A stretch of 64,000 bases of DNA from Liolophura sinensis (taxonomy: Eukaryota; Mollusca; Polyplacophora; Chitonida; Chitonidae): positions 24,933,127-24,997,126 of the forward strand of contig NC_088297.1 in NCBI RefSeq assembly GCF_032854445.1, written 5' to 3'. The translations under genes were made by a program, and so were the position numbers. Below the pieces are notes generated by a model that worked only from the letters and a program-made list of their open reading frames with translations, did no database searches and was not told the origin of the DNA. Of this stretch, positions 25,285-64,000 are shown piece by piece. Every line of letters starts with the position of its first letter. The first letter of the stretch is position 1.

Positions 25285-28200
25285 CTGCCAAGGAAAGAAA
25301 ATTGTTGGATTGTGAGTTTTAATCAGTAAAAAGTACACCTGATTACAATGAATGCTATTTCAACAGCATTCCAACATATTGAGCGTTTCTATGGTACAAC
25401 ACAAGCCAAAATCAAGCCACTTGCTCACCACAAGCATACTACTACCATTCCACTCCACTGCTGAGAATGGTTGATCAAACGTCCATTTAAGATTAAGCCA
25501 GCTTACAGGTGAACTGTAAAGCTCTTCAAACTTTGCAAAAACATTCTTAATTCTCTTCTTACTGTATAGGATTTTTTTTTTGTGAAAACATTTCATTAAC
25601 TATTTTAATATAAATCTTTATGTCTGTTGAATGTGACTTATGAAATCTTTACATCGCTTATCTCTCTTTGCTTTAGGACCTCATAACAACTCTGAGAACT
25701 CTTTAGAAAACGAAGGTAAGAAAATGTTGCAGGCTGCTACAATGTCCATTCTATATAAAAAAAACCCCCATACATGTGCGAGTCAAATCTGACCTGCAAT
25801 CAAACTTAGAAAAGCTACAACCAGCTTCAGATATAACATTTATACATGTAATCTATTCTTAACACAGCAAACCTTATCACCTACAGAGCTAGAATACAAT
25901 TGTACTGATATGCAAAAATAAAATAACTTACAGCCATGATATAGCATAAAGCACATATACAGGCAGTCCAAGGGAAACCAAGTTTGTCACTGACAATACC
26001 ACCCAGTGTGGTAGGTCCAAGAAATGACCTGAAAAGTAATATGTCATATATGTGATATGAAAACAAGGTATCGGAACAGGCTCTGAAGACCCTGAACTGC
26101 CCTGCTATGTGTAAAGCCTTATACTGTAAGTCTTCAGCCTATTCACTCACTAAACACCCTTTTTCTGAGTGGAATTTAAGCATACAATTATCAAAATGAT
26201 TAACTTTTGTCACTGAAGATGCAAGCTTCATAAAGTTGTGCAAATTAGTTCCCTAAAACCTATAGCTCTCTCAGAATGTTTCAAAATATTGGCTGCGAGG
26301 CAGTTGAAAAGACTGAAGAGTTAGGGTCAGGGATTTTATCAAATTAGACAACACATGAAAAAGTCATTGCATGGAAACCAACACAAAAATTAGAACAATG
26401 GAAATCATTAAATATACAAAACTCAAACAGGGGTTCCACTGGTTTTAGAACTTGATCTGAGGTTACACAAATTGAACATGCCTACATAAATTTTACCAAC
26501 ATCAAAGAATATTTGGAGCAGTTATGGCACAAAAATCTGACTGCAAATCAGAATCAACGCATTTACTACATACGCAAAAATCAGCCCACATACATAATAG
26601 GCTGCTTTTCAAACTTGCTGTGACATTTCCACCATGTGAGCCTGCACACAAAATTTCAGCAAACTCGGGCAATACTTTGTATAATTTTCACAGAGGAACC
26701 ACAACATGATTGATGGGCAGAAAAACAAACAGACAAAAAAAAAAAAGACAGAACGACAAACCTAATATCCCTTGATATTTGTTGAAGCATGGGTTGGGAT
26801 AAAAATGATGAGAAAATGTACTCGTATATTTGTCAATTGTGAAGAAGACTCCCAAACCAATATATCCTCATAGTTCACATGTCTAGTTACATGTAAAGCA
26901 GTCGCCTACCCGAAAGAGAAAGCTGAATTAAACAACCCTGACACGATCCCGTATGTGGCAAAACTTTCAGGGTAACCATTGGCACTAAAACAGAAATCAA
27001 CAAAGTTTAATAAACATTTTCATGTATACAAACATTTAGTTCTTATACTATTGCTGTGGTCCCGCTATTCTTCATCTGTTTACATCACGCACATTGCAAA
27101 CAGGCTCTTCGTTTATACTGGATACATTGTAATGTGAGTGAAAAAAATCATGGGATTTAAGCAACACTTGTACATCCTACTGACAGAAAGACAAGCATCG
27201 CAGTCAGTCAGCCGTGACCCATCACACCTACTCCCACACCACCCTACCACCTTAATACCCGACTACCCAACACCCCCACCATCTACCACTGTACCAACAA
27301 AACAGAAAGAGTTCATTTGTACTAATACAGAAGCTATAGGACAAGGTCAAAAAAGGGGAGGTAACTAACCTTGCAGAGTCCAACAGTGCCTTGAAGGTGG
27401 GTATCAAAGCGCACCCTAGGAATAATCCCATCAGTACAAGGGAGACAACCTCCAGCCAAAGTTCTCTGTGGGGTGGAATGTATTTACATATTTATTTATT
27501 TATCATTTTTATCCCATACTCAAGCATTTATCAGATACACAAAGGTGGAGAGTTTTATGTGGAGGAAACCAGAGTGTCATCGCCATGTCAAACCACTGAC
27601 AAACTTTACCACATACCTGCATGACGTACAGGTATTCACACTTTAATGATGGAAGTCCAACTGTCGTCAGTGAACATTAGACTGTGCAAACAGTCACGTG
27701 ACAGCTTGTCGTCAACTGCTTACTGATACCAAAGTCCACAAGTAGTGAAAGCAAAGAGATTTACATGTATTATCACCAGACAATGACCCACTCTCATGTA
27801 GGAGATGACGACAAAATACAGACAGGATGTGGGCAGAAGCATGAGGCAAACAATAACATTTAGATATACATGTATTATCACCAGACAATGACCCACTCTC
27901 ATGTAGGAGATGACGACAAAATACAGACAGGATGTGGGCAGAAGCATGAGGCAAACAATAAAATATAGATATACATGTATTATCACCAGACAATGACCCA
28001 CTCTCATGTAGGAGATGACGACAAAATACAGACAGGATGTGGGCAGAAGCATGAGGCAAACAATAACATTTAGATATACATGTATTATCACCAGACCACA
28101 GCCCACTCTCATGTAGGAGATGACGACAAAATACAGACAGGATGTGGGCAGAAGCATGAGGCAAACAATAACATATAGATATACATGTATTATCACCAGA

Positions 28201-31200
28201 TAATGACCCACTCTCATGTAGGAGATGACGACAAAATACAGACAGGATGTGGGCACAAGTATGAGGCAAACAATAAAATATAGATATACATGTATTATCA
28301 CCAGACCACAGCCCACTCTCATGTAAGAGATGACGACAAAATACAGACAGGATGTGGGCAGAAGCATGAGGCAAACAATAACATATAGATATACATGTAT
28401 TATCACCAGACCACAGCCCACTCTCATGTAGGAGATGACGACAAAATACAGACAGGATGTGGGCACAAGCATGAGGCAAACAATAACATATTGATATACA
28501 TGTATTATCACCAGACCACAGCCCACTCTCATGTAGGAGATGACGACAAAATACAGACAGGATGTGGGCAGAAGCATGAGGCAAACAATAACATATTGAT
28601 ATACATGTATTATCACCAGACAATGACCCACTCTCATGTAGGAGATGACAAAATACAGGCAGGATGTAGGCACAAGTATGAGGTAAACAATAACATATAG
28701 ATATACATGTATTATCACCAGACAATGACCCACTCTCATGTAAGAGATGACAAAATACAGACAGGATGTGGGCGCAAGTATGAGGTAAACAATAACATAT
28801 AGATATACATGTATTATCACCAGACAATGACCCACTCTCATGTAGGAGATGACAAAATACAGGCAAGATGTAGGCACAAGCATGAGGGAAACAATAAAAT
28901 ATAGATATACATGTATTATCACCAGACAATGACCCACTCTCATGTAAGAGATGACAAAATACAGACAGGATGTTGGCACAAGTATGAGGTAAACAATAAC
29001 ATATATATATACATGTATTATCACCAGACAATGACCCACTCTCACGTAGGAGATGATAAAATACAGACAGGATGTGGGCACAAGGATGAGGCAAACAATA
29101 ACATAAAGATATACAAGTATTATCACCAGACAACGACCCACCCCCATGTAAGAGATGACAAAATACAGACAGGATGTTGGCACAAGCATGAGGGAAACAA
29201 TAAAATATAGATATACATGTATTATCACCAGACAATGACCCACTCTCATGTAAGAGATGACAAAATACAGACAGGATGTAGGCAGAAGCATGAGGTAAAC
29301 AATAACATATAGATATACATGTATTATCACCAGACAATGACCCACTCTCACGTAGGAGATGATAAAATACAGACAGGATGTGGGCACAAGGATGAGGCAA
29401 ACAATAACATAAAGATATACAAGTATTATCACCAGACAACGACCCACCCCCATGTAAGAGATGACAAAATACAGACAGGATGTAGGCACAAGCATGAGGG
29501 AAACAATAAAATATAGATATACATGTATTATCACCAGACAATGACCCACTCTCATGTAAGAGATGACAAAATACAGACAGGATGTAGGCAGAAGCATGAG
29601 GTTAACAATAACATATAGATATACATGTATTATCACCAGACAATGACCCACTCTCATGTAGGAGATGACAAAATACAGACAGGATGTAGGCACAAGCATG
29701 AGGGAAACAATAACATAAAGATATACAAGTATTATCACCAGACAATGACCCACTCTCATGTAAGAGATGACAAAATACAGACAGGATGTAGGCACAAGTA
29801 TGAGGTAAACAATAACATATAGATATACATGTATTATCACCAGATAATGACCCACTCTCACGTAGGAGATGATAAAATACAGACAGGATGTGGGCACAAG
29901 GATGAGGCAAACAATAACATAAAGATATACAAGTATTATCACCAGACAACGACCCACCCCCATGTAAGAGATGACAAAATACAGACAGGATGTAGGCACA
30001 AGCATGAGGGAAACAATAAAATATAGATATACATGTATTATCACCAGACAATGACCCACTCTCATGTAGGAGAATACAAAATACAGACAGGATGTGGGCA
30101 GAAGTATGAGGCAAACAAAAAAATATTGATATACATGTATTATCACCAGACAATGACCCACTCTCATGTAGGAGATGACAAAATACAGACAGGATGTGGG
30201 CAGAAGCATGAGGCAAACAATAACATATAGATATACATGTATTATCACCAGACAATGACCCACTCTCATGTAGGAGATGACAAAATACAGACAGGATGTG
30301 GGCAGAAGCATGAGGCAAACAATAAAATATAGATATACATGTATTATCACCAGACAATGACCCACTCTCATGTAAGAGATGACAAAATACAGAGAGGATG
30401 TGGGCAGAAGCATGAGGCAAACAATAAAATATAGATATACATGTATTATCACCAGACAATGACCCACTCTCATGTAAGAGATGACAAAATACAGAGAGGA
30501 TGTAGGCAGAAGCATGAGGCAAACAATAAAATATAGATATACATGTATTATCACCAGACAACGACCCACCCCTGTGTAAGAGATGACAAAATACAGACAG
30601 GATGTGGGCAGAAGTATGAGGCAAACAATAAAATATAGATATACATGTATTATCACCAGACAATGACCCACTCTCATGTAAGAGATGACAAAATACAGAG
30701 AGGATGTAGGCAGAAGCATGAGGCAAACAATAAAATATAGATATACATGTATTATCACCAGACAACGACCCACCCCTGTGTAAGAGATGACAAAATACAG
30801 ACAGGATGTGGGCAGAAGTATGAGGCAAACAATAAAATATAGATATACATGAATTATCACCAGACCACAGTCCACCCCCGCGTAGAGGATGAGAAAATAT
30901 TGACAGAATGTGGGCAGGAGAAAGAGGTGATGAGGCAAAGAAAAAAATTCTGATACCTGTATATTATCAGTATCTAATATATGTGTACTTACAATTTAAT
31001 GTTAAGAAAAGGTGCTGGTCCGATGAGAACAAAAGCAACGGCTGTCAGTATGTTGCCGCCTACAATCATTGTGATGGTGTAGCCCTAAACAATAAACATA
31101 CACTGACTCTTTTATCTGAATCGTGTTTTATGCTGCAGATAATGACGATTGCGTCATTTATATTCCCTAAATGACCACATATTTCGTTTATGACAAACTT

Positions 31201-34200
31201 TTTTTAAGCCAATTTTTCATGATTCCCAGTTAAAGTGATCTTAGAAAAATGTTTTGAGGTTTGCATGGAACATGAGATGACATTTTACTGGAAAATTGTA
31301 CGTTTCAGCATCAAAAATAATATTTTGTGACATTTAAAATGCACTTTAGAGGTCATTTAGAGTAAACTGAAAATCCCCAAAATACCAAAGAGCATTTTGG
31401 GAGACCAATAAATGTCATGAGATTACTTCTGGTGCTAAAATTGACATTTTCCCGGCAGGATTTCATCTAACCTTTCACACATCTCTCAAAACATCTTTCT
31501 AAAATCAAATGAACTGAGCAACTTGATCATGGCCATTTCGGGTATAAACTGACACCTGGCCAAGCGCCACAACTCCTCTTCTTCACTTCTTAGCACAAAG
31601 CCAGGGAAGTAGGCCTACCAGGACAGTAAAAGCCTATTGTAAGATCTGACTTGGGATTGAACCAGACATCTGCTGGTAATAAGACACATGGTCATTTCGG
31701 GTATAAACTGACACCTGGCCAAGCGCTACAACGCCTCTTCTTCACTTCTTAGCACAAAGCCAGGGAAGTAGGCCTACCAGGATAGTAAAAGTCTATTGTA
31801 AGATCTGACTTGGGATTGAACCAGACATCTGCTGGTAATAAGACACATGGTCATTTCGGGTATAAACTGACACCTGGCCAAGCGCCACAACGCCTCTTCT
31901 TCACTTCTTAGCACAAAGCCAGGGAAGTAGGCCTACCAGGACAGTAAAAGCCTATTGTAAGATCTGACTTGGGATTGAACCAGACATCTGCTGGTAATAA
32001 GACACATGGTCATTTCGGGTATAAACTGACACCTGGCCAAGCGCCACAACTCCTCTTCTTCACTTCTTAGCACAAAGCCAGGGAAGTAGGCCTACCATGA
32101 CAGTAAAAGCCTATTGTAAGATCTGACTTGGGATTGAACCTGACATCTGCTGGTAATAAGACACATGGTCATTTCGGGTATAAACTGACACCTGGCCAAG
32201 CGCCACAACGCCTCTTCTTCACTTCTTAGCACAAAGCCAGGGAAGTAGGCCTACCAGGATAGTAAAAGCCTATTGTAAGATCTGACTTGGGATTGAACCA
32301 GACATCTGCTGGTAATAAGACACATGGTCATTTCGGGTATAAACTGACACCTGGCCAAGCGCCACAACTCCTCTTCTTCACTTCTTAGCACAAAGCCAGG
32401 GAAGTAGGCCTACCATGACAGTAAAAGCCTATTGTAAGATCTGACTTGGGATTGAACCTGACATCTGCTGGTAATAAGACACATGGTCATTTCGGGTATA
32501 AACTGACACCTGGCCAAGCGCCACAACGCCTCTTCTTCACTTCTTAGCACAAAGCCAGGGAAGTAGGCCTACCAGGATAGTAAAAGACTATTGTAAGATC
32601 TGACTTGGGATTGAACCAGACATCTGCTGGTAATAAGACACATGGTTTCATTAGGGTGCAACAATTCAAGCAACGAGCTGTACATTCTATGCACATAGTG
32701 ACAACTGTAAGAAAAGTTACTTAAACTGCACACAAGTTTTTACTGGAACTCTGGTTTTACCTTATTGTCTCCAATCCAGCCAAAGACAGGCGCAGTCAGG
32801 GCGTAGACGGCTGGTGCCAGGAAAAACATCAATCCAACCCAAAAAGGAGACAGGTTAAACTGTATTTAAAAATAAAAAAAACATCCCTATAGCAGGTGAA
32901 AGTATTAAAATATCATGTATGTTTTCATCAGATTTGCCTCATATGGTCACCAGATGTCGCCGCTCTTACACCGGATACTGAGACTTCTTTTAAAAATTGC
33001 ATGCATCAGATTTGTCATAGCTTTTGAGGTAAATGACGGCAGCATTATTTGCCACGAAAGCCTGCACAATTTTGTGAAAGTAGACCCATGAGAGGGTTGA
33101 CTGTCTACTACAGAAAAAACCAGATCATCTGAAAGCAGATGTACAGATATTAAGTGTTCATTTATTTGACAGATCTATAGCCAACATAAACACTTTCACA
33201 AAATTTCCCCCTCAGCTGTTCCAATTCAACCCGTATTACATGAAAAGGTACTAAAGAATGACAGAGCATGGTGTTATGGAACCTGATTAAAGGTATACCA
33301 AACAAAAACAAAAAAAATGTGAAGAAAGATTATATTTTATATTTCTCAATAACCTCTTTATTTCATGTATATTTTCCATCTGAAATATTTGGAAATGACA
33401 TCATTGATGAATATACTGGGAAAGTGGGACGACCAACTAAGCAATCACATTTCAGGCCCTTACCAACCAGTCCTATTTCCTTGCCCTGACCACTTAGTGC
33501 TGAGTGCGAGCAGCAGCAAGTGCCTTTTTAAACGTCTTTGATATGACCTGACACGGGTTTGATCCCGGGGTCTCCCCGACTTCGAGGCCGACACCCTAAC
33601 TATGAGTGGATTAAAGCAGATTCATTGAATGCAGCCATGTATCTGGATATAACAGAATGAATTTTAAGATCCTTTTACCTCCACAAAATGTTCAGCTAAG
33701 GTAGGGTCGAGAAATCCCATCCCAAATGATCCTATCACGATGGACACGGTTATGACAAAAGCGGAAGGCTTCAGGAAAAAGGAGATAAGCGATCCTTCAA
33801 ACGGGACTTCATGATCTGAAAAAAAAAGGAGCAAAATGACCAGTCTCATGTTACAGTTTCACATACACTAGCTACAGTCTAGTTGAGCCAGGTTGGTATT
33901 AAGGACTGTGCAAGGAGTAATTGTTCAATATTCATCATGATTTGTTAACTTTATTTCAAGAGGACAAAACAACGTCAAATTCACAGCACTGCACATAAAC
34001 ATATTCTTGTGGGAGTACTGTGCTCTTCCAGATTTTATCTGAGGAGTACTGGCCTATATCACAGGAGTACTGGCTTATTTCAGAGGAATACTGGCTTATA
34101 TCTGATGAGTACTGGCTAATATCTGAAGAGTACTGGCTAATATCTGAAGAGTACTGGGTAATATCTGAGGAGTACTGGCTAATATCTAAGGGGTACTGGC

Positions 34201-37200
34201 TTACATCTGAGGGTACAGGCTTACATCTGAGGGGTACTGGCTAATATCTAAGGGGTACTGGCTTACATCTGGGGATTACTGGCTAGTATCTGAGGAGTAC
34301 TGGCTAATATCTAAGGGGTACTGGCTTACATCTGGGGATTACTGGCTAGTATCTGAGGAGTGCTGGCTAATATCTGAGGGTACAGGCTTACATCTGAGGG
34401 GTACTGGCTAATGTCTGAAGAGTTCTGGCTAATATCTAAGGGGGTACTGGCTTACATCTGAGGATACAGGCTTACATCTGAGGGGTACTGGCTAATGTCT
34501 GAGGGGTACTGGTTTACATCCGAGGGGTACTGGCTAATATCTAAGGGGTACTGCCTTACATCTGGTGAGTACTGGCTAGTTTCTGAGGAGTACTGGGTAA
34601 TATCTGAGGGTACTGGCCTACATCTGAGGGTACTGGTTTACATCTGAGGGGTACTGGCTAATATCTTAGGGGTACTGGCTTACACCTGAGGGGGTACTGC
34701 CAGTACTGCCAAAANNNNNNNNNNNNNNNNNNNNNNNNNNNNNNNNNNNNNNNNNNNNNNNNNNNNNNNNNNNNNNNNNNNNNNNNNNNNNNNNNNNNNN
34801 NNNNNNNNNNNNNNNNNNNNNNNNNNNNNNNNNNNNNNNNNNNNNNNNNNNNNNNNNNNNNNNNNNNNNNNNNNNNNNNNNNNNNNNNNNNNNNNNNNNN
34901 NNNNNNNNNNNNNNGACTGCTTGACCCGTATCAGTATAATGGTTTGGGCGAGGAGGCTTACTTGCCTTCGGTAAAGCGTCTCATAGATGAAAGAACATAG
35001 AAATCCGTCCTGCAACAAGGAGGCACATTACATGCATTCTAAGGATTCCTTCGTCGTCATATGACTGAAAAATTGTCAAGTACAACGTTAAACCCAAAGC
35101 ACTCACACACTCACTCTCTTACTCTGATACGACCAATTGCAATATCTGACTCAACCCTCTGCAAGAGTCCAACAGTCCAGCTTCAAAGACTCCTGTCTGA
35201 TGTTAAATGAATGTAATCAAGCTGTTGGATTACTTGATACTGGATTTAAAACAAAAGAGGAAGTTGGAGGGCACACGCTATGTCACTGAAACACAATCCA
35301 AATACTTGGAATAACACCAGATAAACTGAAGAACAAATATGTTCATATCCTGGCACAGTTTTTTTTTTTTTTTTTTGTTGGATTAGTGTATGATGCCAGT
35401 ATGGTTTATTAGCAGATGAAAAGTAGTTACTGTGACGAGCCTCCTGACTAAAGGCCTTGTCTAAACCATGAGCTCACCTGGTGCCTGACAGCACTCACCT
35501 GATACAGGGCACCCCCTAGCGGCGGACCTACCATCATCCCAAACCCACTAAACGTCTCCAAAGCACCCTGGCAAAAGAGAATGGACTTTTTTCTAAATGC
35601 TGTTTAACGCTTAACCCTGCACTGTTACATTTATACAAGTCAATAATATTCATTTTAAAGAAATGAAAAATGCACTTTTATGTTAGAAAAAAAAAAGAAA
35701 GAAAGAAACAACACATATTTAATCATACCAAAGACATGACATCCGCAGGCCTTTCATACATTGCTAAGGTCATTCAGACATGACACCAGCTGGCCATTCA
35801 TATATTGCCAAGGTGATTCAGACATAACACCAGCTGGCCATTCATATATTGCCAAGGTGATTCAGACATAACACCAGCTGGCCATTCATACATTGCTAAT
35901 GTCATTCAGACATGACACCAGCTGGCCATTCATATATTGCCAAGGTGATTCAGACATAACACCAGCTGGCCTTTCATACATTGTCAAGGTCATTCAGACA
36001 TGACACCAGCTGGCCATTCATATATTGCCAAGATCATTCAGACATGACACCAGCTGGCCTTTCATACATTGTCAAGGTCATTCAGACATGACACCAGCTG
36101 GCCATTCATATATTGCCAAGGTGATTCAGACATAACACCAGCTGGCCATTCATACATTGCTAAGGTCATTCAGACATGACACCAGCTGGCCATTCATATA
36201 TTGCCAAGGTGATTCAGACATAACACCAGCTGGCCATTCATACATTGCTAAGGTGATTCAGACATGACACCAGCTGGCCATTCATATATTGCCAAGGTCA
36301 TTCAGACATAACACCAGCTGGCCTTTCATACATTGTCAAGGTGATTCAGACATGACACCAGCTTGCCATTCATACACTTCCAAGGTGATTCAGACAGGAC
36401 ACCAGCAGGCCATTCATACATTGCCAAGGTGATTCAGACATGACACCAGCTGACCTTTCATACACTGTCAATGTGATTCAGTCATGACACCATGAAATAC
36501 ATCCAAACAAGACATAGAATTAGATATCTTCTAGATATTAGATATATAAAGATATATATCTTTATTTGATACTATATACATTATACTTATTATACTTATT
36601 TATTTGATTGGAGATTTACGCCGTGCAAAAAACTATTTTACCCGGGGAGAAACCCAGCACCATCCACAGGCTACTGACAGAAAGGAGAGGAAGCCAGCAT
36701 GAGCTAGACTTGAACTCACACCCACTGCCTTGGCAAGAGGTTCCTGAGTCACTGAGATGAGTTTTTATTTGAAAAAAAATTTTGAGTGTAACAGGGTAAA
36801 TATATACAACTTACAAAAACTGTTGCCACATTGGCTGGAAATTCATGGGCCACGATGGCAAAACTTGCCACAAGTACAGCTGAGCTTCCCAGGGCCTCCA
36901 CTGAGCGTGTCAGGAAGCACATGACAATGTAAATAGTCCCCGGGGGACACATGTCTAAAGTCCTGAAACAACAACAGCAACAGCCATAATTAACAGCTTA
37001 GCTCTAAGTTACATGTTGTATCTTAATATTTGCTTCAATTGCTAGTGGTTTACTCCTTCATCATTTTGGTCATGTTACAATTTTGTATCAATGTAGCAGG
37101 TTGGTGTCAATGCCGATACACTGGTAGTGTTACCTCAATGAAATACCACGCTGAAGACACCAGACAGGACCCATTCACAGTGGACAGACAGTCATAGTGC

Positions 37201-40200
37201 TGCCTCACTCAAAGACAATTCTGAAGACACCTGACATAAGGCACACTCACAACACATACAGGCAGCCATAGTGTTGCCTCACTCAAATACCACGTTGAAG
37301 CCACCAGGCATGACACCATCACTACAGACAGTCACAGTGAAGCCTATCAAAGAGGCCATGCTAAATAGCAAGCACTCACAACATACACACAGTCATAATA
37401 CCGCCTCAGTAGTGAGTTATGCTGAGGTCACCACACATGACACGCACTTTTAACCTGGATTCAATGCATTGTGCTGTCATGATATTTGTTTAATATTTTC
37501 TGGAAATTTCTGGGAGCAGTTCTTTCAACACTCATAGTGACATTTCACCATCATGTTCAACATGTATTTATCCATCTGTCGGGTGTTTTATGTCACACTC
37601 AACAAGAATTTTTCACTAACATATGTTGACATTGTCAATCTGTCAGGATTAAGGATGGAGGAAACAAAAAATTTTGTTGTCACAAACACAAATAAGGACA
37701 CGTGTACTTACCCAAACTCACCATATTCCAGATACCAACACACCTACCACAAACATGAATGAGAAGACCTGTACCCACCCAAACAACACTCCACATATTC
37801 CAGATACCAACACACCTGCCACAAACACGAATAAGGACACGTGTACTCACTCAAACTCACCATATTCCAGATACCAACACACCTGACACAAACATGAATG
37901 AGGACACATGTACTCACCCAAACAACACTCCACATATTCCAGATACCAACACACCTGCCACAAACATGAATGAGGACATGTGTACTCACCCAAACAACAC
38001 TCCACATATTCCAGATACCAACACACCTGCCACAAACACGAATAAGGACACGTGTACTCACTCAAACTCACCATATTCCAGATACCAACACACCTGACAC
38101 AAACATGAATGAGGACACATGTACTCACCCAAACAACACTCCACATATTCCAGATACCAACACACCTGCCACAAACATGAATGAGGACACATGTACTCAC
38201 CCAAACAACACTCCACATATTCCAGATACCAACACACCTGACACAAACATGAATGAGGACACATGTACTCACCCAAACAACACTCCACATATTCCAGATA
38301 CCAACACACCCGCCACAAACATAAATGAGGACACATGTACTCACTCAAACAACACTCCACATATTCCAGATACAAACACATCCGCCACAAACATAAATGA
38401 GGACATGTGTACTCACCCAAACAACACTCCACATATTCCAGATACCACCACACTCGCCACAAACATAAATGAGGACACGTGTACTCACCCAATCAACACT
38501 CCACATATTCCAGATACCAACACATCCGCCACAAACATGAATGAGGACACGTGTACTCACTCAAACAACACTCCACATATTTCAGATACAAACACACCCG
38601 CCACAAACATAAATGAGGACACGTGTACTCACCCAATCAACACTCCACATATTCCAGATACCAACACATCCGCCACAAACATGAATGAGGACACGTGTAC
38701 TCACCCAATCAACACTCCACATATTCCAGATACCAACACATCCGCCACAAACATGAATGAGGACACGTGTACTCACTCAAACAACACTCCACATATTCCA
38801 GATACAAACACACCCGCCACAAACATGAATGAGGACATGTGTACTCACCCAAACAACACTCCACATATTCCAGATACCAACACACCCGCCACAAACATGA
38901 ATGAGGACACGTGTACTCACCCAAACAACACTCCACATATTCCAGATACTAACACACACCCCACAAACATGAATGAGGACACGTGTACTCACCCAAACAA
39001 CACTCCACATATTCCAGATACCAACACACCCGCCACAAACATAAATGAGGGCACGTGTACTCACCCAAACAACACTCCACATATTCCAGATACCAACACA
39101 CCTGCCACAAACATAAATGAGGGCACGTGTACTCACCCAAACAACACTCCACATATTCCAGATACCAACACACCCGCCACAAACATAAATGAGGACATGT
39201 GTACTCACCCAAACAACACTCCACATATTCCAGATACCAACACACCCGCCACAAACATAAATAAGGACATGTGTACTCACCCAAACTCACCATATTCCAG
39301 ATACCAACACACCCGCCACAAACATAAATGAGGACACATGTACTCACCCAAACAACATTCCACACATTCCAGATACCAACACACCCGCCACAAACATAAA
39401 TGAGGGCACGTGTACTCACCCAAACAACACTCCACATATTCCAGATACCAACACACCTGACACAAACATGAATGAGGACACCTGTACTCACCCAAACAAC
39501 ACTCCACATATTCCAGATACCAACACACCTGCCACAACATGAATGAGGACACCTGTACTCACCCAAACAACACTCCACATATTCCAGATACCAACACACC
39601 TGCCACAACATGAATGAGGACACCTGTACTCACCCAAACAACACTCCACATATTCCAGATACCAACACACCTGCCACAACATGAATGAGGACACCTGTAC
39701 TCACCCAAACAACACTCCACATATTCCAGATACCAACACACCCACCACAAACATGAACTTGGCTCCAATTTTTGTTATCTGAATAACACAGAAAACAGAA
39801 AAATGTATGAGTATCAGTATCAGCAGAAGAAACCACTGAAAACTGTATCTGAAAATACTTTCGCTTTTTTTTTTTTTTTTTTTTTACAGATTCTTTCCCC
39901 CAGAATTAAAAGCAGTCAAATGTGGGCTTAACAGACCATTGTAATAATGAATGTGGCCAATGATGAAAAATTATTTTCTATGCTTGTGAAAACAATGGCA
40001 ACCATACATGGTTTTACCAGCGAGGCATCACGGTTAGATTACATATATAGAATACATACAGACAGGACATTTACATGATTACACCCAAAATCATATCACA
40101 TTGAGACATGCCATAACTCTGCCTGTACATTTTCAGTTCTTTCATTTCCAGTGTTAAGTGACACAAGGTCAAAGTTTATCACTAGTATTTATTTATTTAT

Positions 40201-43200
40201 TTATTTATTTATTTGGCTGGTGTTTTATGCCGTACTCAAGAATATATCACTTATGACGACGGCCAGCATTATTGTGGGAGAAAACCAGGCAGAGCCTGGG
40301 GGAAACCCACAACCATCCACAGACCTTCCCATGTATGTCCTGAAAGGAAGCCCGCATGCGCTGGACTTGAACTCACAGTGCTGGCACTGGTTAGAGGCTC
40401 GAGGGTCATCATGCCGCGCTGGCATGAAAACGCCCTCGGCCACAGAGGCCCCTCTATCGCCTTTATAATGTACAGTTACAAATTTCACTGCTTTGGGAAC
40501 GACAACACTTGCAACTGAACTCAGCATTCCACTGAAACACAGCCCAAACTCACCAGACTGCCCAATACTGAGGAGGAGAGGAATATCACCAGCTCATACG
40601 TCCTGAACTCAGCATTCCACTCAAACACAGCCCAAACTCACCAGACTGCCCAGTACTGGGGAGGAGAGGAATATCACCAGCTCATACGTCCTGAACTCAG
40701 CATTCCACTCAAACACAGCCCAAACTCACCAGACTGCCCAGTACTGGGGAGGAGAGGAATATCACCAGCTCATACGTCCTGAACTCAGCATTCCACTCAA
40801 ACACAGCCCAAACTCACCAGACTGCCCAGTACTGGGGAGGAGAGGAATATCACCAGCTCATACGTCCTGAACTCAGCATTCCACTCAAACACAGCCCAAA
40901 CTCACCAGACTGCCCAATACTTGGGAGGAGAGGAATATCACCAGCTCATACGTCCTGAACTCAGCATTCCACTCAAACACAGCCCAAACTCACCAGACTG
41001 CCCAATACTGGGGAGGAGAGGAATATCACCAGCTCATACGTCCTGAACTCAGCATTCCACTGAAACACAGCCCAAACTCACCAGACTGCCCAATACTGGG
41101 GAGGAGAGGAATATCACCAGCTCATACGTCCTGAACTCAGTATTCCACTCAAACACAGCCCAAACTCACCAGACTGCCCAGTACTGGGGAGGAGAGGAAT
41201 ATCACCAGCTCATACGTCCTGAACTCAGCATTCCACTCAAACACAGCCCAAACTCACCAGACTGCCCAATACTTGGGAGGAGAGGAATATCACCAGCTCA
41301 TACGTCCTGAACTCAGCATTCCACTCAAACACAGCCCAAACTCACCAGACTGCCCAATACTGGGGAGGAGAGGAATATCACCAGCTCATACGTCCTGAAC
41401 TCAGCATTCCACTCAAATACAGCCCAAACTCACCAGACTGCCCAGTACTGGGGAGGAGAGGAATATCACCAGCTCATACGTCCTGAACTCAACATTCCAC
41501 TGAAACACAGCCCAAACTCACCAGACTGCCCAAAACTGGGGAGGAGAGGAATATCACCAGCTCATACGTCCTGAACTCAGCATTCCACTGAAACACAGCC
41601 CAAACTCACCAGACTGCCCAGTACTGGGGAGGAGAGGAATATCACCAGCTCATACGTCCTGAACTCAGCATTCCACTCAAACACAGCCCAAACTCACCAG
41701 ACTGCCCAGTACTGGGGAGGAGAGGAATATCACCAGCTCATACGTCCTGAACTCAGCATTCCACTCAAACACAGCCCAAACTCACCAGACTGCCCAGTAC
41801 TGGGGAGGAGAGGAATATCACCAGCTCATACGTCCTGAACTCAGCATTCCACTCAAACACAGCCCAAACTCACCAGACTGCCCAGTACTGGGGAGGAGAG
41901 GAATATCACCAGCTCATACGTCCTGAACTCAGCATTCCACTCAAACACAGCCCAAACTCACCAGACTGCCCAGTACTGGGGAGGAGAGGAATATCACCAG
42001 CTCATACGTCCTGAACTCAGCATTCCACTCAAACACAGCCCAAACTCACCAGACTGCCCAGTACTGGGGAGGAGAGGAATATCACCAGCTCATACGTCCT
42101 GAACTCAGCATTCCACTCAAACACAGCCCAAACTCACCAGACTGCCCAGTACTGGGGAGGAGAGGAATATCACCAGCTCATACGTCCTGAACTCAGCATT
42201 CCACTCAAACACAGCCCAAACTCACCAGACTGCCCAGTACTGGGGAGGAGAGGAATATCACCAGCTCATACGTCCTGAACTCAGCATTACACTCAAACAC
42301 AGCCCAAACTCACCAGACTGCCCAGTACTGGGGAGGAGAGGAATATCACCAGCTCATACGTCCTGAACTCAGCATTCCACTCAAACACAGCCCAAACTCA
42401 CCAGACTGCCCAGTACTGGGGAGGAGAGGAATATCACCAGCTCATACGTCCTGAACTCAGCATTCCACTCAAACACAGCCCAAACTCACCAGACTGCCCA
42501 AAACTGGGGAGGAGAGGAATATCACCAGCTCATATGTCCCAAATATCATCCCAGTGATCCCCTGGCTAACACCTTTCACAGACGCCTGAAAAATGAAATT
42601 GCCAAATGAAAAATAGGACTGCCAATGTAAATACAAGACTGCCAAAGGGAAATCAAGACTGCCAAACAAGAAATAAGATCACCAAAGGAAAAACAAGCCT
42701 GCCAAAGGATACAGGATTACCAAATGAGAAACAAGATTGCCAAATGAAAAAGAAAAACGAAAAAAAAATGACATTTTATAAACATGAACTTCTCCAATGT
42801 AAAAGGAAATTCTTGTAAGACTTACTCATCTAATTTGTAGCTTTGCAACTTTAGGGGTAATCAACGTACCACAACTGGTATATTAGGGTATTCTGCTTTT
42901 TTCAATTAGTAGATCCATTTTCTTTAGGCCAACAACATTTGCGTACATCTAAATACAATGATTTTACATACATTAGTCTGGGGCTAATCTTTTGGCATAC
43001 AGAATACCCACACTAAATAATCTACCTTCATTAGGAACCTGACAAATCTCCTGACTTAAAGCTACAGCTGAACGAGCGAGAGTCAAAGTCCATCCTGTTT
43101 AATCACTGGTCTCCTGGGTAAAAACCTGTTCAGGGTTACTTTCTTTAAATACTACTTGTTCCGCAATAAAAACTACGTGGAATTATTAAAATGATATGAA

Positions 43201-44537
43201 GTAAATCCCATGGAAGTAGAACTATGGTTCCAATGGGTGTACAATGTACAACACTATTTAACCTCTATCACTCGTGATTCCTCAAAAATAAAATTCCCAT
43301 CAGTTTTCGTAATATTTGCTCAGAGTGGTGTGGTGTGATATTATTCCTTTCGTGATGTTGAATCAAGCAGATATGACATCGAGTAACTATTACAGCAATT
43401 CTGCTGAAATGACATCAAGAGCATTGGACAGTGGAGCATCTAGACATGTGGTTTCACGCCAGTCATGCCATGTGATCTTGCTTGACGTCACACCAGACCA
43501 AAGTGTTTCCATATTATCCAATGCGAATTACAAAAGCGGTTTTAATACATGTACACTGTAACTGATGTTAACAATTTAAGAAAACAATCCAAACTATTTC
43601 GACCTTTATCATATTTCAGTGTTTTTCAGACACACAGGTTTTGACACAAGCATAGCTCTTTAACTTCAGGGTACATAAAAATCTCCTCATGGTACGTACT
43701 TACTTCTTGTGGGAAGAATGGTGCCAACAGAGCAAATGCCGCACTGGCACAAAAGTTCACAAACGCAATAGAAATGAGAGTAAACTTGTGACGAGTGCTG
43801 ATCCTGCGGAATGAGAACTCTGGAGGGTCCTTGGAACCCCCGCAATCAGCACCCTCTGGTGGCCCGTCACTGTTCAGTGATGGGCATGACTGGGTTTGCT
43901 CACCAGAGGAACATTCCATGGCACCATATGTGCTCCAACTCTTGGAGCGTGGCCTGAAAACACCAAGTTTGCTTCTTTTCACTCTTTGTTTACGTGCCTT
44001 CAGTGCATGAGATGGAACCGAGGATGAAAACTGAGCCTCCTTGGTGGCTTGAAATTTGCTGATTTCATTTCCAGAGCAGCTTAATTTACTTTGCTCCGCT
44101 TTTATGGATTTGTTTCCGTCTTCATTAGATGGTGATAATGAAGACATTTGTTCAATTGCTGAGATAGAATCCCTTGAACTGTCATCTTCTGCTTCATTCT
44201 TCAAAATTCTTGACCCTCTCTCGTTTGTTAAATCCTTTTTATGCCCTCTGTCACCATATGACTGAGTTTCAGATTCATGACTCAGTTTCAGAGAAGAGTT
44301 CAGTTCTTGTAAATCTCTTTCTCCTTCTTCATGACCTGTCACAGGTAGGCTGTTAGCTCTTCCCAATTCTCTGTCACCAGAGCTATAATCCTGTTCCTTC
44401 TTACTTGAATCAACAGGTTCATCAAAAACCCCACTGTCAAGCCTGTAACTATAGGAACAGTTGCCAGGAGACTCCTGCCCCCTGTTGCCATAGAAATCAT
44501 CTTGAACTTCACCTTGGGGAGGCAGATCACCCTCCAT
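25135..44537 (-). CDS. SLC18B1: SLC18B1-like vesicular polyamine transporter (whole coding span, 13 exons, one hidden in the gap)
   Basis: This is a major facilitator superfamily proton antiporter. The human SLC18B1 family member loads spermine and spermidine into secretory vesicles in exchange for protons. Twelve exons are read directly, at 44537-43704, 42585-42490, 39778-39705, 36962-36815, 35567-35499, 33815-33679, 32859-32761, 31084-30993, 27465-27370, 26984-26910, 26028-25932 and 25284-25135. All have GT-AG borders and compatible phases, giving about 655 residues. Eleven of twelve helices are visible. The antiporter motif GPPLGG ends helix 5, and a related GPTTLGG lies in helix 11. The helix 6 exon must lie between 35498 and 33816 and is probably in the N run. 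The N-terminal tail before helix 1 is about 248 residues, far longer than the few tens in the human protein. Family assignment is from remembered homology. A paralogue within the SLC18B1-like group cannot be excluded. Confidence 0.88.
25932..26028 (-). CDS. SLC18B1: Transporter exon 12 (helices 11-12)
   Basis: One base plus 32 codons, from TTTTCAG|GTCA to GCT|GTAAGT. It encodes SFLGPTTLGGIVSDKLGFPW then TACICALCYIMA. The GPTTLGG glycines and the DKLGF ending repeat the pattern of helix 5, as expected from the internal symmetry of this superfamily. Confidence 0.89.
26910..26984 (-). CDS. SLC18B1: Transporter exon 11 (start of helix 11)
   Basis: One base, 24 codons and two bases, from CTGTTTTAG|TGCC to TTCGG|GTAGGC. 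It encodes ANGYPESFATYGIVSGLFNS and AFSFG, matching the family segment before the second GP motif. The donor GTAGGC is the weakest in the gene, and its neighbours are nearer the consensus. Confidence 0.88.
27370..27465 (-). CDS. SLC18B1: Transporter exon 10 (helix 10)
   Basis: One base completes a leucine codon, then 31 codons and two bases run to GCAAG|GTTAGT. The acceptor is CCCCACAG. It encodes ELWLEVVSLVLMGLFLGCAL then IPTFKALLDSA, matching helix 10 and its conserved IPTF ending. The alternative AG two bases further on would break the frame. Confidence 0.89.
27485..27640 (-). mobile_element. Faint SINE-like copy in transporter intron 9
   Basis: TTTATTTATTTATCATTTTT, CCCATACTCAAGCATTTATC and TGTGGAGGAAACCAGAG echo family A blocks at low similarity. 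Confidence 0.35.
27740..30900. repeat. 102/105-bp minisatellite filling transporter intron 9
   Basis: About 30 units with ATACATGTATTATCACCAGA, TGTAGGAGATGACGACAAAA and GCATGAGGCAAACAATAA. Units left of about 28640 have GATGACGACAAAA (105 bp). Those to the right lack one GAC (102 bp). Both lengths are multiples of three, so a 1072-codon minus frame and others stay open. No start, splice or family support exists for a protein. Confidence 0.95.
30993..31084 (-). CDS. SLC18B1: Transporter exon 9 (helix 9)
   Basis: Thirty codons plus two bases, from TGTTTAG|GGC to AAATT|GTAAGT. It encodes GYTITMIVGGNILTAVAFVL then IGPAPFLNIK, with the family-typical GP motif closing helix 9. The donor opens an intron almost wholly filled by the 102/105-bp array. 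Confidence 0.9.
31531..32645. repeat. 159-bp tandem repeat, seven copies, in transporter intron 8
   Basis: Units contain CATTTCGGGTATAAACTGAC, GCACAAAGCCAGGGAAGTAG and GGGATTGAACCAGACATCTG. Copies are almost identical, so the expansion is recent. The last motif is B-box-like (GGGATTGAACC), so the unit may have been seeded by a tRNA-derived element. Confidence 0.95.
32761..32859 (-). CDS. SLC18B1: Transporter exon 8 (helix 8)
   Basis: Thirty-three codons in phase 0 at both ends, from ATACAG|TTT to AAG|GTAAAA. It encodes FNLSPFWVGLMFFLAPAVYA then LTAPVFGWIGDNK. The ending PVFGWIGDNK is the second-half equivalent of the conserved major facilitator loop after helix 2. Confidence 0.9.
33424..33612 (-). 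mobile_element. tRNA-derived SINE family C
   Basis: The minus strand reads TTAGGGTGTCGGCCTCGAAG, GACCCCGGGATCAAACCCG (B-box-like), then GGCACTTGCTGCTGCTCGCA and AGGAAATAGGACTGGTTGG. This arrangement of tRNA-like head plus conserved body is typical of SINEs in molluscs. It lies in transporter intron 7, beside exon 7. Confidence 0.6.
33679..33815 (-). CDS. SLC18B1: Transporter exon 7 (central loop and helix 7)
   Basis: Two bases complete a codon, then 45 codons end in phase 0 at GAG|GTAAAA. The acceptor has an uninterrupted T tract before CAG. It encodes the central loop HEVPFEGSLISFFLKPSAF and helix 7, FVITVSIVIGSFGMGFLDP, ending TLAEHFVE. The FGFLDPTL-type ending of helix 7 is characteristic of SLC18B1 and the SLC18 group. 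Confidence 0.9.
34030..34714. repeat. About 20-bp minisatellite ending at the gap
   Basis: Units alternate between GAGGGGTACTGGCTTACATCT and GAGTACTGGCTAATATCT types. On the minus strand many units contain GTAAGCCAGTACC preceded by CTCAGAT, which resembles a 5' splice site. The array meets the N run at the point where exon 6 is expected. Confidence 0.9.
34686..34714 (-). CDS. SLC18B1: Possible visible 3' end of transporter exon 6 at the gap edge
   Basis: Exon 5 leaves in phase 0 and exon 7 enters needing one preceding base, so a missing exon of length 3n+1 must lie between them. It should encode helix 6. The 29 bases beside the N run can be read as FGSTGSTPS plus one G, ending at a usable donor GTGTAAG in exactly the phase needed. 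This would form the hydrophilic loop joining exon 7 (DHEVPFEGS). The sequence also looks like a unit of the adjacent 20-bp array, so the call is tentative. Confidence 0.3.
34715..34914. other. Assembly gap, 200 N
   Basis: Exactly 200 undetermined bases. The round number suggests a scaffolding placeholder, so the true length is unknown. It interrupts the transporter gene between exons 5 and 7, has minisatellite on the left and a truncated SINE on the right, and probably hides the helix 6 exon. Confidence 0.97.
34915..35115 (+). mobile_element. SINE family B, 5' part lost in the gap
   Basis: From GACTGCTTGACCCGTATCAG through TTACTTGCCTTCGGTAAAGC to GTACAACGTTAAACCCAAAG and an ACTC-repeat tail, it matches the inverse complement of the copy at 47.4-47.8 kb. 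The head is hidden in the N run. Confidence 0.7.
35499..35567 (-). CDS. SLC18B1: Transporter exon 5 (helix 5, antiporter motif)
   Basis: Twenty-three codons in phase 0 at both ends, residues 385-407, from TTGCCAG|GGT to CAG|GTGAGT. It encodes GALETFSGFGMMVGPPLGG and ALYQ, which is the major facilitator motif C of proton antiporters (spaced glycines followed by GP and GG). This motif is the best single indicator of the exchange mechanism. Confidence 0.9.
35738..36495. repeat. 44-bp minisatellite, about 17 copies, in transporter intron 4
   Basis: Unit core CATTCAGACATGACACCAGC with TGGCCATTCATATATTGCCA. Two alternating unit types (ATATATTGCCAAGG and ATACATTGCTAAGG or ATACATTGTCAAGG) suggest duplication of pairs. 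Confidence 0.93.
36595..36760 (-). mobile_element. SINE family A, degraded, in transporter intron 4
   Basis: TTATTTATTTGATTGG, a decayed middle, then GAAGCCAGCATGAGCTAGAC and TTGAACTCACACCCACTGCC. Central blocks are deleted. Confidence 0.6.
36815..36962 (-). CDS. SLC18B1: Transporter exon 4 (helix 4 and loop)
   Basis: One base completes the glycine codon begun in exon 3, then 49 codons end in phase 0 at TTT|GTAAGT. The acceptor is GTTTCAG. It encodes the short loop TLDMCPPGTIYI, helix 4 (VMCFLTRSVEALGSSAVLVA) and EFPANVATVF, a segment conserved in the family just before the antiporter helix. Together with exon 3 it completes residues 311-384. Confidence 0.9.
36963..37689. other. Transporter intron 3, near side
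   Basis: Loosely repeated words (CATAGTGCTGCCTCACTCAA, CATAGTGTTGCCTCACTCAA) at 37120-37440 suggest an eroded tandem repeat of about 70-75 bp. A faint SINE-like scrap lies at 37565-37675. Confidence 0.4.
37690..39755. repeat. 72-bp array derived from the end of exon 3 and its donor (about 29 copies)
   Basis: On the minus strand each unit is 53 bases of the 3' part of exon 3 (GTGTTGGTATCTGGAATATG and TGGAGTGTTGTTTGG), the donor GTGAGT and 13 further intron bases. The authentic exon and donor (39705-39778) are the right-hand end of the array. The unit is a multiple of three, giving the 453-codon plus frame and several minus frames that encode nothing recognisable. Confidence 0.93.
39705..39778 (-). 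CDS. SLC18B1: Transporter exon 3 (helix 3)
   Basis: Seventy-four bases, entering in phase 0 after GTTATTCAG and leaving in phase 2 at TTTGG|GTGAGT. It encodes ITKIGAKFMF followed by VVGVLVSGICGVLFG, matching the human helix 3 segment in position and character. The last 53 bases plus 19 intron bases are the unit of the 72-bp array beginning directly at this donor. In the exon frame, the donor itself supplies an immediate TGA if it is not spliced. Confidence 0.88.
40186..40455 (-). mobile_element. SINE family A, near full-length, in transporter intron 2
   Basis: It has the ATTT-repeat tail on the left, the TTTTATGCCGTACTCAAGAA block, the AACCCACAACCATCCACAG block and a diverged tRNA-like head ending GCCACAGAGGCCCC on the right. 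It sits just beyond the exon 2-derived array. Confidence 0.8.
40515..42540. repeat. 88-bp array derived from the end of exon 2 and its donor (about 23 copies)
   Basis: On the minus strand each unit is the last 50 bases of exon 2 (from ACGTATGAGCTGGTG to GGCAGTCTG), then GTGAGTTTGGGCTGTG and the rest of 38 intron bases. The authentic exon (42490-42585) is the right-hand unit. Copies differ from one another at only a few positions, for example GTACTGG against ATACTGG. Confidence 0.96.
42490..42585 (-). CDS. SLC18B1: Transporter exon 2 (helix 2)
   Basis: Thirty-two codons in phase 0 at both ends, residues 279-310, from TTTCAG|GCG to CTG|GTGAGT. It encodes GITGMIFGTYELVIFLSSP and the start of the loop, matching helix 2 of SLC18B1. 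The last 50 bases of this exon, together with its donor and the first 38 intron bases, form the unit of the 88-bp array that follows it on the minus strand. Reading into the intron gives a stop after six residues. Confidence 0.9.
42595..42760. repeat. About 21-bp degenerate repeat before exon 2
   Basis: Seven or so units of AAGACTGCCAAAGGGAAATC type lie in transporter intron 1, immediately upstream of the exon 2 acceptor. Confidence 0.65.
42761..43703. other. Remainder of transporter intron 1
   Basis: Unique sequence with no repeat or exon that I can support. Confidence 0.5.
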
Positions 44538-44626
44538 GTGTTGTGAATAGTTTTCTAAAGATCATTCATGGACAATTCTTTTGTAGTCCACCATTCCATC
44601 GTCCTTTTTCAGAACTCTCCAAAACA
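43704..44626 (-). CDS. SLC18B1: Transporter exon with start codon: long cytosolic tail and helix 1
   Basis: Coding runs 44537-43704 (278 codons, ending in phase 0 at GAA|GTAAGT). The upstream part, 44538-44626, is 5' untranslated and follows a pyrimidine-rich TTTTTCAG acceptor. The ATG at 44537 is preceded in frame by a TGA about 27 bases upstream, so the start is well supported. Residues 1 to about 245 are hydrophilic and rich in Ser, Glu, Asp and Gly, with a basic stretch (KARKQRVKRSK) near residue 190, and look disordered. Helix 1 occupies about residues 252-275 and ends in APFFPQE, the usual position of the family's first helix. The long tail is not typical of the vertebrate protein and may be a regulatory or sorting addition. 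Confidence 0.88.
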
Positions 44627-61769: not shown

Positions 61770-64000
61770 CAAGTCCGACATTCCTATACCATTCGTAGTC
61801 CGTAAAGGGCGTTCCAAGTCGATAATCGCAAGATCCATTTCCACAACAAAGTCCGTGAATAAATTCGTTCGTAGTCCGTGAATGAGTTCCATGTCAAATA
61901 ACAGCTAAACAAGTATCTCAGTCGCGCTTTCATTGCAACTGTTCATAAAGGCATCATGCTGATGTAATTAGCATGGCTACCTATACGGCCCCTAGCCCCA
62001 GGTTAAGCGGTATTAGATACAGTTTGAAAATGACAAGCGTTACACACCCTAACCTACCAGATATATGATTCAAACGTAACGGACGATTACGTCTTTCCCG
62101 TTAATATGTAAAGATTTCATGCTGCAAGAGGCGACATCAATGATGTTACACATGACATACAAGATAGACTGTTACACTGGGCAACCAGCGCCATCTATGT
62201 TGTTAAATACCATGTACGTGATAGATATGTACATAGGGATAACAGCGCAGTCTATGTGGTTGATCACAATGCAGATCGCCAGAGATTCTGAACGCTCTGT
62301 CCATACCTGCCAACGAGTGTTATATTCATTGTAAAATTTGAGAAACTTAGAATGAAGGCGTTTGATGGAGTATCCTTGACATACTAGTTTTTGGACTAAC
62401 AATTTGTGACGCAGATTAAAGTCATCACAATTAACGCAAGATCTGACAAATGCTACTAGGCGAGATATGTATACGCTATATGCAGGACCCTTTGGTATAT
62501 TGCTATCTAAATAAGGATAATTTACAATATCAAAATTGAAATTATGCCTTTTGTCGTAAAGGCGGCGTGAAAGGAGATCTTGTCCGTCTTTGTACAGATA
62601 TAGATCCAAATAAGATGTACCATCAGGACTATCTGTTGTCTCCTTTAAATCCAATGAAGGCGGATAGATTTCCTTCACAGCTTCAGCAATATGGGGATTA
62701 TTTAACGCCATCAGTATACCGCTTGGTAAATGAAAAGGATCGAGCTTTAAAGATATTACTTTTACGTAATTTCTGCATATAGTCGTATTCATATGAAAAC
62801 AGGTATAGGTCTGCCAAAAGAGGCGCACAGTTGGTACCCACTGGAATACCTATGCACTGTTGGTAAATGGTATCTCCGAATTTCACATAGATGTTATTAA
62901 TGAGAAATTCAAGTAATTCAATAAATAATGTAACATCCCATGAGTGGTAACCTTTATAAAGAGTAGAACTAAAGAAAGCCTTATTGCTTCTGACGTTAAT
63001 ATAACGGTGACTAGTTTTAGTAAATACCGAGACAATTAACGACGACATTCTTTCAATAAGATCTTTGTGAGGATTCGTAGTATAGAGAGTAGAGAAATCC
63101 CATGTGGATACGTCTTTGTACGGTATATGCATATGAGCATCGAGTTCTTCTGTAAGACGTTTGGAGTTGTTAAGAATCCACATGCAGTTGACACCTGAAT
63201 TTTTTGTTATGGCACAACAATACTTATTCCAAAATGACTTTACTTCTTGTAACGCTCTCGTCAGTAGGGTTGACAAGAGTTTGGTGGTACAGCTTCTTGA
63301 ACCTGCAATAAATCGAACCTTGTATGGGGATTTGTGCATTTTAGGAAACCAGTAAAGTTGTGGTATTTCTGTGTGACGGGTAGGTATATTTATGCGCCTT
63401 TATTTAAGAACGGTTTTGTGTTTGTTAAATAGTTCCTCCAGAGTACATGTAGTAGAATACGTGGATGTCGTTGTGGATGCACATAGCTCTTGAACAAGAA
63501 TTTGATAATAATAATTCTTGCAAATAAAGATGACATTATTAGGAGCCTTGTCTGCTACAGTGATGACAAATTTACTATGAAGGTCAGCGAGTGTTTCTTG
63601 CACAGTGGGATCCTTCAGAACCTGTTTAACTTTAGGTAGAGCATCAATGTCTAGGCGGTGTATAGTTAAACTAACTTTCTTTTTGACAATCTCAAGCCAA
63701 TCGTTAAGTACCGAAGAATCCAATTTCTCCCGTTTTGACCATTTTTTAATATACTCCACACTTCTTGCATGTTACCAAGTAAATACAATTGGGACACAAT
63801 ACAACTTAAGTTAACGTAGGAATTAACAGAATAACATTTACCAGTCAGTGAGGAAATAAAAGTGGCGGATGTATCAAATGATGGACATGTAAGACAATCG
63901 TTATGTCCACATTTAGAAATAGTTAAATGTTTGCTTTGGGAATTCAATGTCAAACAATCGTTTAGTTGGACAGAACACGGTTTGGTGGAAATACCATGTT
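61770..64000 (-). mobile_element. Decayed Penelope-like retroelement, Naiad type, running off the right edge
   Basis: Minus-strand reading gives, in order: a cysteine motif (CGHNDCLTC, near 63905), the first strand of a GIY-YIG endonuclease, a linker (63759-63400) and a reverse transcriptase (63339-62698, then 62828-62172 in another frame). The core contains YWFPKMHKSPYKVRFIAG and IGIPVGTNCAPLLADLYL. An endonuclease upstream of the reverse transcriptase is the permuted order described for Naiad/Chlamys Penelope-like elements. Breaks seen: the endonuclease is frameshifted and cut short after its first strand, one in-frame TAA lies near 63399, and the catalytic box reads YTDG followed by a frameshift instead of Y-x-D-D. 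The region 61770-62171 is the 3' untranslated part, which also occurs at 3.1-3.5 kb. This copy cannot encode an active enzyme. Confidence 0.8.

Follow-up and report, generated by a model that had tools for sequence, protein, structure and literature searches.

The end of coding exon 2 of an SLC18B1-like gene in the chiton Liolophura sinensis, together with its 5' splice site, is repeated as an 88-bp tandem array. This array is a real, well-formed and large case of a known kind, and a second one lies beside it, at the exon 3 border of the same gene. Most likely, it is a new, large example of a mirage, spliced at its first donor. We consider it highly probable that both arrays are such exon-border minisatellites, in which an 88-bp and a ~72-bp segment were independently duplicated and expanded while the first donor stayed in use. 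The window, the whole stretch of DNA analyzed here, comprises 64,000 nucleotides (C3:24933127-24997126, scaffold_11), and the assembly searched contains 632 contigs and 609.46 Mb. PMC11068029 gives 14x HiFi coverage with reads averaging 8,347 bp; the species was originally published there as Liolophura japonica, a name since corrected to L. sinensis (PMC12441733). Positions below are those of the window, and a slash marks the exon-intron border.

The 88-bp array at the exon 2 border

The features at exon 2 are as follows:

42490..42585, minus strand: the 96-nt coding exon 2, ASVKGVSQGITGMIFGTYELVIFLSSPVLGSL, with acceptor TTTTTCAG and donor CTG/GTGAGT
42451..42538, minus strand: unit 1 of the 88-bp array, with the real exon 2 end, the real donor (GT 42489-42488) and the rest of the 39 intron bases
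40515..42450, minus strand: units 2-23 of the 88-bp array, in which the exon 2 border recurs 22 times within the intron; donor CTGGTGAGTTTG in every unit
42600..42751, minus strand: degenerate 20-bp array, 7.7 copies, 69% matches, pyrimidine-rich TTTGGCAGTCTTGTTTTTCA-like units (Tandem Repeats Finder)

Run on the window, Tandem Repeats Finder reported a period of 88 with 23.0 copies, 98% matches and a score of 3896 at 40515-42539, and cutting the minus strand unit by unit yielded 23 units of 88 bp, from 42538 down to 40515. An earlier sequence-only reading had described a coding exon 2 border expanded into about 23 copies of 88 bp, with the real exon as the terminal unit, and both statements are borne out, the exon 2 end being held by unit 1. 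The same reading had divided the unit into 50 exon bases, a six-base donor and 32 further intron bases; its make-up of exon end, donor and intron stands, but the split is 49 exon bases plus 39 intron bases (GTGAGT and 33 more), with one G assignable to either side.

The units are highly uniform, with 22 variant cells among 2024 bases when compared with the unit consensus. Units 1 and 23, the edge units, which in a mirage would escape homogenisation, carry three differences each, and the inner units carry 0-2 in 20 of 21 cases and four in the remaining one. The three differences that separate the real exon 2 end from the consensus (ACA/ACG, GTT/GTA and TTG/CTG) are all synonymous, as judged by reading the codons by eye in frame. 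The 12 bases surrounding the donor, CTGGTGAGTTTG, are invariant in 23 of 23 units, which agrees with the earlier expectation of about 22 near-identical donors downstream of the real one. As the exon 2 donor copies are identical, local strength cannot pick one of them; with the donors identical over 12 bases and their surroundings nearly so, the choice must lie outside the unit, in position, the real acceptor or transcription order.

The unit also contains CCTCTCCTCCCCAG and TTCAG, as well as the stretches of 14 and 49 bases, all as the sequence-only reading had listed them. In the unit consensus, CCTCTCCTCCCCAG is acceptor-like and lies 14 bases 5' of the donor, an arrangement that would suit intron or exon gain under way, with a downstream unit becoming a new exon. 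Such a model has been published for amphioxus globin genes (PMC3087553). We regard it as very unlikely for this gene, in which a pseudo-exon of 14, 49 or 88 bases would in each case shift the reading frame, and a stop in frame with exon 2 lies in the intronic portion of the unit. Use of a distal donor would append V-S-L-G-C-V followed by TGA, the stop after six residues that had been foreseen.

The degenerate 20-bp array, which the earlier reading did not mention, lies on the acceptor side of exon 2 and stops 14 bases short of it. By eye, the tract of the acceptor itself (TTTGGCAATTTCATTTTTCAG) resembles a final unit of this array that has diverged. Just downstream of the 88-bp array, at 40206-40470, lies a copy of a SINE-like dispersed repeat, for which blastn gave 15 hits in the window, counting this copy.

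The SLC18B1-like host gene and its second array

The other located exons of the gene, and the second array, are listed below; splice sites throughout were set by eye.

43704..44561, minus strand: upstream coding exon (exon 1), open frame ending FALLAPFFPQE, 5' limit not fixed; donor GAA/GTAAGT
39705..39778, minus strand: coding exon 3, 74 nt, ITKIGAKFMFVVGVLVSGICGVLFG; donor TTTGG/GTGAGT
37681..39757, minus strand: 71/72-bp array repeating the exon 3 end and donor about 28 times (Tandem Repeats Finder and unit cutting)
36815..36962, minus strand: exon 4, no duplicated border in the border test
35499..35567, minus strand: exon 5, no duplicated border in the border test
33679..33815, minus strand: exon 7
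32761..32859, minus strand: exon 8, limits by eye
30993..31084, minus strand: exon 9, limits by eye
27370..27465, minus strand: exon 10, limits by eye
26910..26984, minus strand: exon 11, limits by eye
25932..26028, minus strand: exon 12, the last located, limits by eye

Joined, exons 1-4 matched human SLC18B1 (PDB 9d7u) with E = 8.7e-32 over query residues 4-137, which upholds the earlier claim that exon 2 is coding; exon 2 on its own reached E = 0.62. The later exons matched the human protein with E = 7.7e-16, and a human SLC18B1 query located exons 8 to 12 of the chiton gene. With many exons matching human SLC18B1, the host gene is an SLC18B1-like transporter gene, a class assigned by comparison with the human protein. 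No exon could be located between exons 5 and 7; this stretch includes a 200-N gap at 34715-34914, and exon 6 may lie inside it. The gap adjoins a 21-bp array.

Exon 2 could in principle be a decayed copy of an exon located elsewhere, and the assembly was searched for a better copy at the DNA and protein levels, with the best candidates scored in each case. A 201-base query over the exon 2 border matched 22 places, all inside the 88-bp array, and the protein search gave six matches: five fell on exons of the SLC18B1-like gene, and the sixth was an MFS gene on C1 with 29% identity. No better copy of exon 2 was found among them, and the decayed-copy explanation was rejected.

The exon 3 array has the same anatomy. 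The border sequence ...GTGTTGTTTGG/GTGAGTACAG is repeated throughout 37681-39757, and the real exon 3 donor (39704) is followed by 28 more copies, comprising 26 GTGAGT, one GTGGGT and one GTAAGT, the last of these being the final copy of the array, at 37711. Four 67-bp variant units contribute four extra GTGAGT, one apiece. The real exon encodes FMFVVG, whereas the array consensus reads FMFVAG, as does human SLC18B1; the array therefore seems to retain an older state of the exon. This second array had gone unmentioned in the earlier reading. In both arrays the unit spans the exon-intron border, and it is the edge unit that holds the border yielding the conserved protein.

The first donor of each array is taken as the one used, since no other donor has a real acceptor facing it over a short exon, as exon definition requires, and no other yields the conserved protein, the gene and frame being fixed by human SLC18B1. 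The joins made at the first donors read GSL-ITKIGAK and LFG-TLDM, in agreement with the human protein. Distal exon 3 donors would run straight into a stop (TTT GGG TGA). With a stop soon after the real donor in both arrays, six residues on for exon 2 and immediate for exon 3, mis-spliced messages would be truncated and probably degraded. We infer first-donor use from this reading frame and from the amphioxus cases discussed below.

We propose that an 88-bp segment, reaching from the exon 2 end through the donor into the first part of intron 2, would have been tandemly duplicated and then grown to 23 units by minisatellite turnover, through slippage, unequal exchange and gene conversion. A ~72-bp segment over the exon 3 border would have undergone the same process independently. 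The 5'-most donor would be used, paired with the real acceptor across the 96-nt (or 74-nt) exon, and the remainder of the array would leave with the intron, so that the duplicates could be tolerated.

Twenty-one splice borders of this gene were tested for duplicates (at least 80% identity over 30 bases): the donors of exons 2 and 3 have them, and the remaining 19 borders have none at this threshold within 3.2 kb; the test left out the exon 1 start, which is not a known acceptor, and several of its windows were one base off. Ordinary minisatellites occupy five further stretches between located exons. A 102-bp array in intron 9 (27757-30865; 30 copies, 92%) sits within a single open frame that runs for 1091 codons on the minus strand (27720-30995), in which its unit, a multiple of three, is stop-free. 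Pfam gave nothing above the cut-off for 10 other open frames of the window, exon 1 included. The open frames at 62172-63771 on the minus strand, with no Pfam match above the cut-off, resemble a retroelement reverse transcriptase by motif.

An assembly artefact, with the repeat collapsed or inflated, would be in keeping with coverage of just 14x and with the 200-N gap and unlocated exon in the same gene. We nevertheless consider it extremely unlikely, since HiFi reads averaging 8,347 bp outspan both arrays, the 2.0-kb exon 2 array among them. The differences among the units are moreover patterned, and the same anatomy recurs in other genes of the genome.

Border duplications elsewhere and their chance rate

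We screened 63 loci for copies of matched exon ends, using 13 MFS, 19 ABC and 30 of 81 myosin matches, each with 1.5 kb flanks. The sample is small and biased, with several loci from the same genes and a 63rd locus (L013) that overlaps L015, and since a profile match need not extend to the true exon border, some borders may have been missed. Splice-border duplications were counted at 4 of the 63 loci, which are likely candidates for border duplication in other chiton genes:

L069: myosin exon donor, end CAGTGTGTGATCATCAG/GTATGT, 66-bp array of 8.1 copies
L077: myosin exon donor, GCAACAT/GTGAGTAT, then a 32-bp array of that border
L038: ABC transporter exon donor, ...GATGAGCCAACCAG/GTAA, two copies 64 bases apart, 79% over 47 bases
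L075: myosin acceptor and ~25 exon bases, two copies (85%) on either side of a 41-bp array, at a distance of ~660 bp

This count leaves out 14 loci with weaker matches (70-92% over 18-50 bases), which had one match each except L071 (two) and the A-rich L074 (seven). Arrays starting inside the intron without a donor were also left out (L040, L061 and the donor side of L075); they begin within the intron by ~13 bases in L040 (1672), ~32 in L061 (1469) and ~15 in L075 (1491).

The genome is rich in minisatellites. At a period of at least 15 and at least 2.5 copies, they cover 33% of the window, in 26 arrays, and 5-22% of five 10-kb pieces elsewhere (~10% of the 50 kb overall). A slightly stricter cut-off gave 9.7% for the five pieces and 9.9% for the 49 ABC and myosin loci. 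The 13 MFS loci, several of which seem to have long exons, had few arrays, at 1.5% of their bases. When the seven array unit lengths of the SLC18B1-like gene were placed over it at random, 0.52 arrays were expected on a splice border and two are seen, with two or more reached in 8.8% of trials (P 0.088). Two or more fell on donors in 2.9% of trials (P 0.029), a donors-only choice that was made after seeing the data. Across the 49 ABC and myosin loci, which offer 98 borders, the expectation was 1.09 arrays and two were seen (L069 and L077); for the 13 MFS loci, 0.09 were expected on borders and none seen.

Donor motifs are not enriched in minisatellite units. Of 75 array units, 6 contain GTRAGT, where shuffling gives 4.65, and 159 of 500 shuffles reach six. 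The six arrays are the two in the SLC18B1-like gene and those at L077, L059, L041 and L049; L059 was viewed, and no exon could be fixed next to it. Given these near-chance counts and the shuffles, borders look neither sought nor avoided by arrays, as far as this small sample tells: minisatellites capture splice borders at roughly the chance rate, and two donors in one gene is somewhat above chance.

The donor copies might instead be functional, introns 2 and 3 together offering ~50 U1-binding sites that would act in one of two ways. In a telescripting form, U1 snRNP would stay bound to the nascent transcript and protect it against premature cleavage and polyadenylation; PMC5499120 reports this process in human, mouse and fly. 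In a tuning form, copy number would set the yield of full-length SLC18B1 mRNA via mis-splicing and decay. The 22 and 28 downstream copies, 48 of them GTGAGT, would suit either form, and all six AATAAA on the gene strand of intron 2 lie in (TATT)n at ~40190-40214, downstream of the array. Intron 3, however, is the richest in donors and has one ATTAAA and zero AATAAA, and array units in general lack donor enrichment. The first nine intron bases of the 72-bp array are nearly unchanged: positions +1 to +9 hold one variant cell, and as few occur in only 4 of 72 nine-base stretches. This could hint weakly at constraint, yet equally few variants as in +1 to +6 are found in 12 of 72 stretches, and the window from -3 to +6 is no better conserved than others, ranking 42 of 72. 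Selective conservation of decoy donors at -3 to +6 is unsupported by this rank, and we consider a function for the donor copies quite improbable.

A broader conjecture would extend mirage formation across the genome. Chiton borders would be captured like any other gene sequence, leaving many genes in which perfect donors compete in their tens, a state that a robust first-donor rule, set by exon definition, would render harmless, with some arrays perhaps serving as U1 platforms or copy-number dials. Taken as a whole, we hold this to be rather unlikely. For the SLC18B1-like gene itself, where the donor choice must lie outside the unit, the arrays offer a natural experiment on exon definition.

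Mirages and other minisatellites at exon borders

Mirages were reportedly first described in Nucleic Acids Res in 2002. The sequence-only reading had called a minisatellite with an exon border as its unit rarely described, which is fair, though incomplete: the parts of PMC3087553 and PMC3902484 on mirages name several amphioxus cases (Adh3, the globins Gb6 and Gb9, TnC and PGBD5), and the relevant part of PMC2812944 surveys internal tandem repeats at human exon-intron boundaries in segmental duplications. The literature matches listed for minisatellites at exon borders include none in molluscs and, as far as these searches show, the mirage is new to this animal group.

As those parts describe them, amphioxus mirages share with the chiton arrays border-spanning tandem units, with the real border beside the copies. 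Their units measure 10-160 bp, repeat donors or acceptors and in many cases contain cryptic splice signals, and the chiton arrays are alike in this. Copy numbers differ, with 23 and ~29 units in the chiton against 2 to 7 in the amphioxus globin and PGBD5 cases covered there. Regular splicing and length instability are reported for amphioxus, where the Adh3 data and globin RT-PCR suggest that splicing is undisturbed by mirages (PMC3087553, likewise PMC3902484), whereas the chiton arrays are known from one haploid assembly alone; individuals probably differ in array copy number.

The human boundary repeats and the chiton arrays are alike as minisatellites that overlap exon borders and may affect splicing. 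In the survey's account, the human repeats average 30-bp units in four copies and lengthen exons or make introns, whereas the chiton arrays are long and intronic (PMC2812944). Ordinary intronic minisatellites of the chiton have sizes and copy numbers similar to those of the border arrays; unlike the latter, the five in the SLC18B1-like gene contain no repeat of a splice border that reaches 80% across 30 bases. Amphioxus mirages belong to a lancelet, and the chiton arrays affect two successive donors of one gene in a mollusc host. They extend the mirage, described only for lancelets in the papers cited here, to a mollusc whose genome holds further candidates.
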